Shown: positions 23,401 through 26,552 of the stretch, in pieces
How the letters are laid out: each line of letters begins with the position of its first letter
Position numbering within the stretch: the stretch's first letter is position 1
From: a bacterium
GTDB lineage: Bacteria; Patescibacteriota; Minisyncoccia; Phycocordibacterales; Phycocordibacteraceae
Length of the DNA: 33,783 nt
Direction of reading: 5' to 3'
Assembly (NCBI GenBank): GCA_030651285.1
Contig: JAUSCN010000025.1
Span: 1 to 33,783 of the forward strand
The notes under the pieces: model-generated
What the model saw: only the letters and a program-made list of their open reading frames with translations
What the model was told of the DNA's origin: nothing
Database searches by the model: none
Position numbers and translations under genes: made by a program

Positions 23401-23997
23401 CTACACAGCCTTGCGAGGGCGAAGACGGAAAAGGAACGGGGTTTGCAATTTAAAACAAACATGCGGGGCCGCACCCCTCGCCGACAGACAAAGACCGTTG
23501 CTAGACTGCCGCATGAGGCGGAAGATGAATGGCTTACGATGAGGCACCTCAATCGGAGCCATTGCGATCAGCAGATGCTCCAAATCATACTGATTCGGAA
23601 ACTGAGACCAGATGTATGGACCGACCTGTGCAGGCAAAATGTCGATGACATGATCTTCCGGAAGAAGCGAGGCATTCTGTTCGCTCCACATCGCGAGGCG
23701 ATCCGGATTAATCAACTCACTCAGCGACATTTTCCTTTGTCCGAAGTCATTTGGTGAAAGCCTGATTGTTGCAATTTCCTGTGTAGGTTCCTGCACATCA
23801 AGCAGGTTGTTCTGCACAACCATTAGAGCCACCTTTGACATTGAGATGTTGTCTGTAAACACTTTTTTCTGCAGCTTCGCAGCGTAGGCGCCACCAATGA
23901 AAACGGTCCCCCAGGGGGCGAACTTCGGCACAGCAAGAGCAGGTTCCCGACGCGCCCTTTTGGTGGCTCGCAAGCTGATTGTAGCAACAGATTCCAT
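23401..23997 (-). CDS. Orphan basic protein with structured mRNA leader
   Basis: 198 aa, basic at both ends (RATKRARREPALAVP near the start; RPRKAV at the end). No signal peptide and no recognised domain. The middle part (SEQNASLLPEDHVIDILPAQVGPYIWSQFPNQYDLEHLLIAMAP) looks globular. The start is ATG 23997, preceded by GGAGGTG; the frame extends nine codons further but without a ribosome site. Its promoter lies about 130 nt upstream, and the leader holds a long hairpin, so expression may be controlled at RNA level. It has its own terminator. Confidence 0.68.
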   Translation of the reverse strand: MESVATISLRATKRARREPALAVPKFAPWGTVFIGGAYAAKLQKKVFTDNISMSKVALMVVQNNLLDVQEPTQEIATIRLSPNDFGQRKMSLSELINPDRLAMWSEQNASLLPEDHVIDILPAQVGPYIWSQFPNQYDLEHLLIAMAPIEVPHRKPFIFRLMRQSSNGLCLSARGAAPHVCFKLQTPFLFRLRPRKAV

Positions 23998-24050
23998 GAA
24001 CACCTCCATCGTGACAATATGCATCGCTGTTCAAGCTGGTCCGTGATCGG

Positions 24051-24102
24051 ATTCGCCACAGCAGAAAATGGCAGAAACCTGCCCCTTTCTGCTGTGGCGA
24101 AT
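24051..24102 (-). promoter_or_regulatory. Long hairpin in the leader of the 23401 gene
   Basis: A 17-bp perfect outer stem (24051-24067 with 24086-24102) encloses a 5-bp inner stem GGCAG/CTGCC, separated by a 2x2 internal loop. Neither side shows a U tract. It lies between the predicted transcription start (about 24127) and the start codon, so a regulatory or mRNA-stabilising leader is favoured over a terminator of the upstream gene. Confidence 0.65.
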
Positions 24103-24133
24103 GCGCAAGGTTTTCTCAAAGAACTACCGCAGC

Positions 24134-24245: not shown

Positions 24246-24686
24246 TTAATTCCGTCTTGAAATCACCTCGTCGAAGGCAAACATTTTTAATTTCTCTACC
24301 AGATCCTGAGTATCGGACCATGTAAAAGTCGCGGTACCTACACCTGGAAGATAGGTCTTGGTCACATCCTCTTTCACCGCGACAACTACTGGGATGCCGC
24401 GGGCCATTGCGTACCCTACCTCCAGAAGTATTCCTTCGCTTTTCTCATCTGAAGTAAGAAGCACGAACAGGAGATCCATGTCATTTAATTTTGAGAATGC
24501 GTGGAATACGTAGTGATGGGCTGCGAAATTCTTATAATTATCAGTCCCAGGCTGAAGCTCAGGGTCGTGGAACGTTGAATATGCAACATGCCCTGCTTCA
24601 GTCAGCGCATCGCACACAGGAGCCAGAAGCTTGTCAAGAGCTTCAGCTTTCTCTCCTGAAAATTTGTATGCGATGAAGATTTTCAT
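24246..24686 (-). CDS. Nucleoside 2-deoxyribosyltransferase-like protein
   Basis: 146 aa, Rossmann-like. MKIFIAYKFSGEKAEALDKLLAPVCDALTEAGH is the usual beginning, and MDLLFVLLTSDEKSEGILLEVGYAMARGIPVVVAVK holds the (G/S)xxxEvGyA motif with the nucleophilic Glu. Family members cleave or exchange N-glycosidic bonds of nucleosides or nucleotides in salvage; some relatives act in nucleotide signalling. The -10 (TAAGAT, 9 nt before the ATG) is at the edge of the 39-bp direct repeat, so its upstream promoter region was shaped by the insertion next door. Confidence 0.83.
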   Translation of the reverse strand: MKIFIAYKFSGEKAEALDKLLAPVCDALTEAGHVAYSTFHDPELQPGTDNYKNFAAHHYVFHAFSKLNDMDLLFVLLTSDEKSEGILLEVGYAMARGIPVVVAVKEDVTKTYLPGVGTATFTWSDTQDLVEKLKMFAFDEVISRRN

Positions 24687-24701
24687 ATGTTCTGTATCTT
24701 A

Positions 24702-24740
24702 TAATGGATCGCTTCGCTTGGAAAAAACTTCAATTCGGCT
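24702..24740. repeat. 39-bp direct repeat, left copy
   Basis: Identical to 25772-25810. It flanks the DUF4238 gene on the side away from tRNA-Gln, between that gene and the deoxyribosyltransferase promoter. Probable attachment-site-like duplication. Confidence 0.9.
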
Positions 24741-24768
24741 AGCCTTATCGGTCTCGTACATTATACCG

Positions 24769-25623
24769 TCAAGCTCCCATTGGTTTTTCTGGAGACTTTT
24801 TTGAGCCCACTTCGATGCTACTCGAAACGTTGATGTTCGGATCAATGTAATACTCAAAAGCACGCTCACAGACACAACGGTTGATAATGTCAACAAAGTC
24901 ATTGTCTATTTCTCTATACTCGATTGTAGATACTTGGTTGGTGGCTCCCACTTTTCCCATCAATTCAAGAGCTGTTCTTGCTTTGGGAAAGATCAATGCA
25001 TGAGAGGGAGAAATTACAATCACCGCTACCCCGTCAAATTCTTCTCCTATGGAAATAGAACCATTGTCACCGATAGCAAATTTTCTATCGCTAGCTGTGT
25101 AAACAATACAAATGGGAGTGAGCGCGCTCATTTGGTAAGCGGCGTCTTTTCTATTTATGACATCTTGTATGGCTCTTAGCTGTGATCTTTTTATATCTTC
25201 TTCCAGATTCCCTAGTTCAAATATGCCATTAATACGTCGCCAGTCTGACCTTTGGTCAGAACCACCTCCTCCTCTGTCTTTTTTGTATGTATGAAAGCCT
25301 ACAAACTCATTGGATCTGTAATATGTAACGTGCCTGAACTCAATGAGGGTCTCATGTTCTTGGAGCGTAAGTTTCCCTTTTGAGATTATTTTGTCAACCA
25401 ACGGAGCGTATATAGTTTCTCTGGTTTTGAGCAAATCTTCAATTTCGTTAGGATTAAAATCATCATGCTCATAGAAGTACTCCCCATACATACTTCCTGT
25501 TGGAGTTTTTGGTAGAAATTTCTTATACCTTTTGTCGAAGAAATTCAAACTACCAGAATTGAGAAATTTCTTCAGGATAAACCTGGGAATATAATGCTGA
25601 ACTTTTGTTTGTTGATTTGTCAT
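24769..25623 (-). CDS. DUF4238 family protein on a repeat-flanked insert
   Basis: 284 aa. VQHYIPRFILKKFLN at the N-terminus is the signature of DUF4238 (HYxPrfyLknF). The rest fits the family: LLKTRETIYAPLVDKII, LIEFRHVTYYRSNEF, RKFAIGDNGSISIG and SPSHALIFPKA. Function is unknown; members are sporadic and often near mobile or defence genes, which is general knowledge and not shown here. ATG 25623 is preferred over the GTG at 25638 because the family signature follows it closely; no Shine-Dalgarno site is seen. The DNA is clearly more AT-rich than its neighbours and lies between two 39-bp direct repeats, one touching tRNA-Gln, so recent acquisition is likely. Confidence 0.85.
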   Translation of the reverse strand: MTNQQTKVQHYIPRFILKKFLNSGSLNFFDKRYKKFLPKTPTGSMYGEYFYEHDDFNPNEIEDLLKTRETIYAPLVDKIISKGKLTLQEHETLIEFRHVTYYRSNEFVGFHTYKKDRGGGGSDQRSDWRRINGIFELGNLEEDIKRSQLRAIQDVINRKDAAYQMSALTPICIVYTASDRKFAIGDNGSISIGEEFDGVAVIVISPSHALIFPKARTALELMGKVGATNQVSTIEYREIDNDFVDIINRCVCERAFEYYIDPNINVSSSIEVGSKKSPEKPMGA

Positions 25624-25673
25624 AAAAACACTCGGCACTCTCTTTGGAGTCCGAACCTACCTCAAAAAACCTC

Positions 25674-25697
25674 CGTCGAAATTAGCAAATTTCGACG
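25674..25697. repeat. Hairpin upstream of the DUF4238 gene
   Basis: A 10-bp perfect stem (25674-25683 with 25688-25697), loop AGCA, followed on the plus strand by CGATTTTTACG. It could end plus-strand transcripts or lie in the leader of DUF4238. No plus-strand gene is known here. Confidence 0.5.
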
Positions 25698-25771
25698 CGA
25701 TTTTTACGCTTCCAATTCTAATACCTTCTTGTACCTAAGACGGCACTGCGAAGCGAATCAAAGCTTTTTTC

Positions 25772-25810
25772 TAATGGATCGCTTCGCTTGGAAAAAACTT
25801 CAATTCGGCT
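25772..25810. repeat. 39-bp direct repeat, right copy, abutting tRNA-Gln
   Basis: Identical to 24702-24740. Its end covers the discriminator base and last acceptor base of tRNA-Gln, as expected for an integration site at a tRNA 3' end. Confidence 0.9.
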
Positions 25811-25879
25811 GGGAGGCTAGGAATCGGACCTAGATTGAGAGATTCAAAGTCTCCCGTCCTACCATTAGACGACCTCCCA
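25809..25879 (-). tRNA. tRNA-Gln (anticodon TTG)
   Basis: 71 nt with discriminator. Acceptor TGGGAGG/CCTCCCA, D arm GTC-TAATGGTAG-GAC, anticodon arm GGAGA-CTTTGAA-TCTCT (anticodon TTG), T arm CTAGG-TCCGATT-CCTAG. Discriminator G fits glutamine. CCA is not fully encoded (GCCG follows). The T loop has C where nearly all tRNAs have U (pseudouridine 55). The upstream helix-turn-helix gene on the same strand ends inside this tRNA. Confidence 0.93.
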
Positions 25880-26552
25880 ATGAAGCAACGATACCATGAA
25901 CCCATCCATTGATTTTTCGATTCAGAACCGTGCTTGAATTCACTTTAATCCTTATCAGGCCGTGATACAAGTCAGCAACATTTTTTCGCTTTGTTTTTGG
26001 ATTACCCTTCTTTAAATATACTCGGTCAAGCTGTTTTGGAGATATGCTGAGCTCGCGTATCCACCAACGTTTAAAAGTTTCTGTTTCAGATTTACGCGTT
26101 TCGTGGACATACAGTTCAAAACAAATTGCTGACGGCGGGACTTTCATTTGCCGAAGCCATTTCAAGAAGACAAGAAGCATCCGCGCATCGGAATTGTTAA
26201 ATGTAACGCCCGTGCTCGGTGAGTGATCATACTGCTTGGAACCTTCAGCCCAATAAAGAGCGACGCCAATGAGCCAAAGTTCGCGAGCTGAAAGCCTATT
26301 TACATCAATGAAGCCTTGTTTCTCAAGCGCTTCTACTTCTGAGATTCGATTCTGGTGTCGTACCTGAGCGCCGCGCAGAGCTGCAGACTTTCGTTTCTTA
26401 GTGATGCGCTGTTTCTGAGGAGTCGCGAGCTGAACGGATTTGAGCCAGTCGGAGAGAGTTGATTTGGCGATTGGGATTTCAGAAAGGATTTCCGAGTACG
26501 TTTTACCCTCTTTACGCAACTGAATCGCCTGCTGCTTTTCAATAGACTTCAT
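25830..26552 (-). CDS. Helix-turn-helix / LAGLIDADG-like protein overlapping tRNA-Gln
   Basis: 240 aa. Residues 1-45 form a resolvase-type helix-turn-helix (QAIQLRKEGKTYSEILSEIPIAKSTLSDWLK). The rest contains ELWLIGVALYWAEGSKQ and VTFNNSDARMLLVFLKWLRQM, the pattern of a widespread patescibacterial family that resembles LAGLIDADG homing endonucleases, so a DNA-binding protein, perhaps a nuclease, is likely. The last 17 codons (positions 25830-25879) coincide with the 5' part of tRNA-Gln on the same strand, ending SLGGRLMVGRETLNLSI. Either the natural stop was lost or the tRNA is processed from this mRNA. TAATAT ends 9 nt before the ATG. Confidence 0.8.
   Translation of the reverse strand: MKSIEKQQAIQLRKEGKTYSEILSEIPIAKSTLSDWLKSVQLATPQKQRITKKRKSAALRGAQVRHQNRISEVEALEKQGFIDVNRLSARELWLIGVALYWAEGSKQYDHSPSTGVTFNNSDARMLLVFLKWLRQMKVPPSAICFELYVHETRKSETETFKRWWIRELSISPKQLDRVYLKKGNPKTKRKNVADLYHGLIRIKVNSSTVLNRKINGWVHGIVASLGGRLMVGRETLNLSI

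Follow-up and report, generated by a model that had tools for sequence, protein, structure and literature searches.

The segment behind the tRNA-Gln gene in the stretch of DNA analysed here (33,783 nucleotides in total, hereafter termed the window) is most probably a small mobile gene cassette, which is located at the 3' end of the tRNA gene, lacks a recombinase of its own and is moved in trans. It would belong to an order-wide family of the Patescibacteria whose members are recognizable by a conserved distal terminus, designated R. To our knowledge, the gain and loss of antiphage genes in these streamlined and mostly uncultured bacteria is poorly understood, and an earlier description of such elements was not found in the open-access literature.

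An exact 39-bp direct repeat is present at positions 24702-24740 and 25772-25810 of the window, embedded in a 42-nt repeat with 98% identity (24699-24740 and 25769-25810; spacing 1070). By estimate, two exact occurrences of a 39-mer within 33.8 kb have a chance probability of the order of 1e-15. The right copy overlaps the last four bases (A72-G73-C74-C75 according to ARAGORN) of a tRNA-Gln(ttg) gene on the minus strand (25807-25879; ARAGORN and Rfam RF00005), which is the insertion target and whose 3' end reads CCAGCC followed by G. Position 76 of this tRNA is a G, and CCA is encoded in many relatives. The GC content of the insert is 39.8%, compared to about 49% in both flanks. A first-pass annotation, made from the letters alone, had described an AT-rich segment flanked by such a repeat with the right copy over the tRNA end, and the repeat search, ARAGORN and the GC content bear out this description. 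The possibility it raised that the repeat might be a common dispersed sequence was not confirmed: no third copy occurs in the genome when up to three mismatches are allowed, and no exact match was obtained in GTDB genome contigs or IMG/VR, sets which may omit records near the window. A single gene, encoding a DUF4238 protein, is located between the repeats and no integrase or recombinase was found there, as had been stated; the mobilization in trans proposed on this basis is hence regarded as supported, and an autonomous tRNA-targeted integrative element was rejected for the same reason. In the broad sense, the segment is a tRNA-targeted integrative element, as the tRNA gene at whose 3' end it lies is intact and a copy of this 3' end is found at the far end of the insert, a CCAGCC-type core being present both at the tRNA and at R.

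In the direction of transcription of the tRNA gene, the window contains tRNA-Gln, the left-end modules Lb and La, the DUF4238 gene (24769-25638), the terminus R (24737-24801), a further Lb and the next gene, all on the minus strand. The tRNA-proximal copy of the 39-bp repeat consists of the tRNA core AGCC and the beginning of Lb, and the distal copy likewise of AGCC and Lb; beyond the repeat, the former continues with GAAAAAAGCTTTG and the latter with TAAGATACAG. The distal copy looks like the start of a next, older element. The gene behind it (24246-24686, minus strand) codes for a nucleoside deoxyribosyltransferase or TIR-like protein of 146 amino acids (PF05014, E 1e-6; weak PADLOC match to TIR) and might be the cargo of this older element; a second R closing that segment was not detected in the window. 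Two further features of the region are a 240-amino-acid HTH-domain reading frame between dnaX and tRNA-Gln (25830-26552), which runs into the tRNA gene and is absent at this place in relatives, and an inverted repeat with 27-bp arms (89%) at 24048-24105, the start of the reading frame 23401-24024.

The terminus R is defined by an alignment with G028, the relative nearest in tRNA sequence, and by the model R1. At the same site, G028 contains a 20-bp repeat composed of the last 7 nt of tRNA-Gln and 13 further nt, which encloses 1.95 kb with two HEPN-like ORFs. The last approximately 48 bp of the two elements align with a score of 41.5, compared to a maximum of 24.5 in 2000 shuffles, and their cargo is unrelated. 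R has a length of approximately 65 bp, contains the final codons of the DUF4238 reading frame and ends in CGAGACCGAGGAGGCCAGCC, i.e. the 3' end of tRNA-Gln. The match of R1 in the window (E 1.9e-16) is the only one in the genome. The proposal of a mini-island at the tRNA gene thus stands with respect to insertion at the tRNA 3' end, but the repeat is not its true boundary, as the element ends at R.

Further genomes of the genus carrying R were found by pattern search, and the R profile recovered held-out copies, including those located between consecutive cassettes in loci L273 and L275. A calibrated sequence model of 68 positions detected R in 21 of the 93 genus members and, across the order, in 34 genomes (out of 347) that represent 30 genera; its distribution across species, each represented by one genome, is sporadic. 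For testing, 20 R loci were fetched, none of which had been used in building the model. In 11 of them, the nearest upstream tRNA gene on the same strand is tRNA-Gln (ttg or ctg) at a distance of 666-3207 bp, and no other tRNA gene is as near in any of the 20. Assuming two tRNA-Gln genes per genome of approximately 750 kb, the chance of this association is approximately 2e-21. The other nine loci have no tRNA gene within 3.3 kb upstream (tRNA-His is found at 6 kb in one of them), and R sites therefore also exist away from tRNA genes. In two loci, L296 (G002:C8:4022) and L295 (G019:C1:210225), weak variants of R end in other tRNA-like 3' sequences, e.g. GGTTCCAGACCGAGCCGGGGCACCA, hinting at possible sister families that target other tRNAs.

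R is non-coding or situated at gene ends, and some left-end modules, including that of L278, resemble terminators, properties also expected if R were a conserved element that regulates the tRNA-Gln locus or marks the end of its transcript, the repeat being a local duplication and no mobile cassette being involved. We consider this explanation very unlikely for the following reasons: R is positioned distally, behind unrelated genes and often with no tRNA gene nearby; it was detected in about 10% of the genomes only, but these belong to 30 genera; it also separates successive cassettes; and at 14 of 15 sites its folding is unremarkable.

The elements that extend from tRNA-Gln to an intact R have sizes of 0.7-3.2 kb and carry one to a few accessory genes. 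Their GC content is mostly below that of the flanks, and the cargo ORFs, with few exceptions, point in the same direction as the tRNA gene. The cargo changes from element to element and is often defence-like. Three loci (L273, L275, and L328) are tandem arrays in which R occurs between successive cassettes; L328, from genome G084, has a single tRNA-Gln followed by three successive R sites and carries, in this order, a type II methyltransferase with a PDDEXK-like nuclease, an AbiH/SIR2-like gene, and an LmuB-like ATPase. Other R elements contain genes for a RiboL-PSP-HEPN-like protein, a DpnI-like restriction protein, HNH and GIY-YIG nucleases, or a PDC-S32-like protein. Several of the family matches of the cargo genes named here score below the curated cut-offs. 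The order Dus-dnaX-tRNA-Gln is conserved across the genus and the stretch behind tRNA-Gln is variable: it is occupied by an IS30-type transposase in G006 and by unrelated small genes in other relatives, and in G023 a serine integrase gene ends over tRNA-Gln. The same arrangement in all relatives, which the first-pass annotation had named as evidence against a mini-island, was accordingly not encountered.

The origin of the long repeat becomes apparent by comparison with G588 (locus L332), a genome from another family of the order, in which R is followed by GAATTGATGTTTTTTACAAGCGAAGTGCTCG. Over 62 bp (25748-25809), this sequence can be aligned to the repeat of the window and the bases that continue it with a score of 74.5 (shuffled maximum 29). 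For La (25664-25718), the stretch of the same locus that immediately follows tRNA-Gln gives a score of 69.5 (shuffled maximum 27). The tRNA-proximal Lb module of the window thus comprises approximately 62 bp (25748-25809); in the distal copy, only its initial part of approximately 40 bp is present. The repeat had initially been taken for a simple attachment-site duplication; as a full account, this was rejected, as no more than 4-7 bp (CCAGCC) are common to the repeat and the tRNA and the other approximately 35 bp belong to a left-end module that also follows R in L332. Judging from these alignments, the most plausible interpretation of the long repeat is that of putative tandem left ends of stacked elements, since stacking within one family would be expected to produce a repeat composed of the tRNA core and Lb.

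The assembly comprises 855 kb in 30 contigs with an estimated contamination of 5.28%, and a repeat of 39 bp is short for some assemblers, so that unrelated sequences might have been joined through it. Such an artefact is extremely improbable in view of the fact that the order of tRNA, left end, cargo, R, and left end recurs in the independent assemblies of G028, G588, and G084.

Concerning the recombinase, the host genome possesses one chromosomal Xer-like gene (C11:39097-39996) and two large serine integrases, whose reading frames (C30:63034-64770 and C16:42303-43916) end inside tRNA-Asn and tRNA-Ala genes, respectively. The Xer-like gene is the only tyrosine integrase gene apart from one on the foreign-looking contig C22. 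This contig of 45 kb contains a P4-type integrase gene and other genes of proteobacterial appearance and probably is contaminating proteobacterial DNA in the assembly. An R-like motif was found at only one serine integrase end, next to tRNA-Ala on C16 of the own genome (E 0.15), and no recombinase tied to R sites was found. Among the 11 genomes with strong R sites, 10 encode a serine integrase, compared to 49 of 82 others (Fisher P 0.04, with the groups having been chosen after looking at the data). This co-occurrence is no more than suggestive of a serine integrase as helper; the R-like motif on C16 and an integrase remnant near an R/L site in G034 (see below) are further hints in this direction. 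Two points speak against it: G490 has R sites and no serine integrase, and cores of several common bases are typical rather of tyrosine recombinases. A serine recombinase may be a slightly better candidate than Xer or another tyrosine recombinase, neither being more likely than not, and an enzyme of some other kind is less likely.

Since serine integrases are situated at tRNA 3' ends in the host genome and at tRNA-Gln in G023, and since an integrase remnant is located approximately 50 bp from an R/L site in G034, the segment might also be regarded as a remnant at tRNA-Gln, left after an originally larger island or phage satellite with an integrase had been stripped of the rest of its genes, in which case a standing family of minimal cassettes would not exist. 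This is improbable: there are many independent elements of 0.7-3.2 kb with an intact R, whose independent decay to one minimal form is not to be expected, and R was not found in IMG/VR except for one 20-bp match within a coding sequence. The latter was judged to be coincidental, and on the basis of this IMG/VR search carriage of R by phages was rejected.

For the preferred reading, that of a cassette moved in trans, we propose the following mechanism. A site-specific recombinase supplied in trans would join the R/L junction of a circular form of the cassette to the 3' end of tRNA-Gln, with the crossover occurring within the short CCAGCC core, so that the tRNA gene would be left intact. The new R end would regenerate a site resembling the tRNA-Gln 3' end, at which further cassettes could be inserted. 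In this manner, cassettes would stack in co-oriented tandem arrays, and the long repeat of the window could have been formed.

Several known systems have properties in common with the R cassettes. Hitcher elements at tRNA hotspots, which include small islands, phage satellites, and tycheposons (reviewed in PMC11389934), likewise insert at tRNA 3' ends, carry accessory or defence genes and rely on functions of others. In contrast to them, R cassettes have only one to a few genes including neither an integrase nor a packaging gene, target a single tRNA species, carry a conserved distal terminus that mimics the tRNA, and are found in Patescibacteria. Assignment as a phage satellite or tycheposon was rejected, as packaging, replication, and helper-phage genes are absent and the cargo is a single gene in the window and few accessory genes in relatives. 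The integrase-less arrays of integron cassettes designated CALIN (PMC11389934) also are co-oriented arrays of cassettes with one or a few genes, as observed in L273, L275, and L328, in which each cassette ends in a recombination-site-like sequence and is moved in trans if at all. The R/L sites differ from attC sites in lacking paired core boxes and a strong hairpin, no IntI was found, and the arrays are anchored at tRNA-Gln. An integron attC site was rejected as an explanation of R, as both RYYYAAC...GTTRRRY boxes are present in none of 15 sites and the folding does not exceed that of shuffled sequences in 14 of the 15. The large serine integrase elements of the genus resemble the R cassettes in their location, two in the own genome ending inside tRNA genes and that of G023 at tRNA-Gln, and differ in that the window cassette has no integrase and an R-like motif is present at just one of their ends.

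Other types of elements are also located at tRNA ends in the host genome. Behind tRNA-Lys(ctt), tRNA-Leu(tag), tRNA-Trp, tRNA-Leu(taa), tRNA-Asp, and tRNA-His, gene-less hairpin elements of about 90-340 bp are present (C17:24769-25260, C17:14104-14300, C17:23452-23740, C3:52930 on the minus strand with two in tandem, and C11:113351-113590). Each begins with an inverted T-arm and ends with a direct copy of 13-22 bp of the 3' end of its own tRNA, and the sequence GAACCGCGGGCCGCAG is common to two of them. They constitute a second kind of tRNA-end element. In addition, a module consisting of a terminator and an inverted T-arm is located behind tRNA-Glu(ctc) and recurs 0.7 kb further on (C30:34976-35840), with a pyridoxamine-oxidase-like gene in between; this segment is a cassette-like unit at another tRNA.

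The DUF4238 protein encoded by the cassette consists of 289 amino acids when translation starts at GTG, or 284 amino acids from an ATG at 25623, and belongs to PF14022 (E 8e-22; 78.3 bits at a curated cut-off of 27). It shows about 20% identity to other members, contains the invariant residues Q9, H10, E62, E69, and R103 as well as the near-invariant D186 and N248, and has GDNG where the family has SDxP. The AlphaFold model (pLDDT 80, pTM 0.80) gave no significant match in a structural search of the PDB, and the fold comparison with VIA-align yielded Z values of 2.5 at most, which carry no weight in either direction. The sole significant match in a structural search of BFVD was a protein of Stenotrophomonas phage Smp131 (E 6e-9), which we take to be a P2-like phage. 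No PADLOC model matched the protein. Rousset et al. 2022 (PMC9122126) reported that E. coli becomes strongly resistant to T7 through a single DUF4238 protein from a hotspot in P2-like prophages. The two systems have in common the Pfam family, the single gene and the location at a mobile-element hotspot, and they differ in that the window gene is part of a bacterial tRNA-Gln cassette rather than a P2-like prophage and contains GDNG instead of SDxP. By analogy to this homologue, a defence role, which had been mentioned as a possibility at first, is likely, and in the host studied here the cargo most likely would work as a single-gene antiphage system.

DUF4238 genes are sporadic, as had been assumed, being present in 5 of 99 relatives and in 16 of 384 genomes of the class. 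In 8 of the 16 class genomes (that of the window excluded), the gene is located within 1.3 kb of a tRNA gene, compared to an expectation of 1.2 (P 6e-6), which assumes uniform placement and is crude, as accessory genes in general may favour sites near tRNA genes. All eight are on the 3' side of the tRNA (five tRNA-Ser, two tRNA-Gln, one tRNA-His), and outside of the Patescibacteria the corresponding figure is 4 of 69. The other DUF4238 loci searched gave no match to the R profile, so that the link between DUF4238 and tRNA genes elsewhere may reflect other element families. In other genomes, no convincing direct repeats were found to flank the DUF4238 genes, save for short copies of tRNA 3' ends in L045, L109, and L110.

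A more far-reaching interpretation, which we put forward with reservation, is that Patescibacteria might have a new type of integron-like system, composed of cassettes with one to a few mostly defence-like genes, an R/L site mimicking tRNA-Gln, co-oriented arrays behind tRNA-Gln genes, and a resident recombinase acting in trans, possibly a large serine integrase. Recombination in trans is amenable to a test with a defined pair of sites, the R/L junction and the 3' end of tRNA-Gln. The conserved and searchable terminus makes it possible to compile many candidate mobile accessory genes from assemblies alone, among them functionally uncharacterized ones that accompany restriction-modification, HEPN-like, and DUF4238 genes. 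The presence of the same cassette end behind many different genes across the order suggests a so far undescribed route by which these minimal bacteria may exchange genes.
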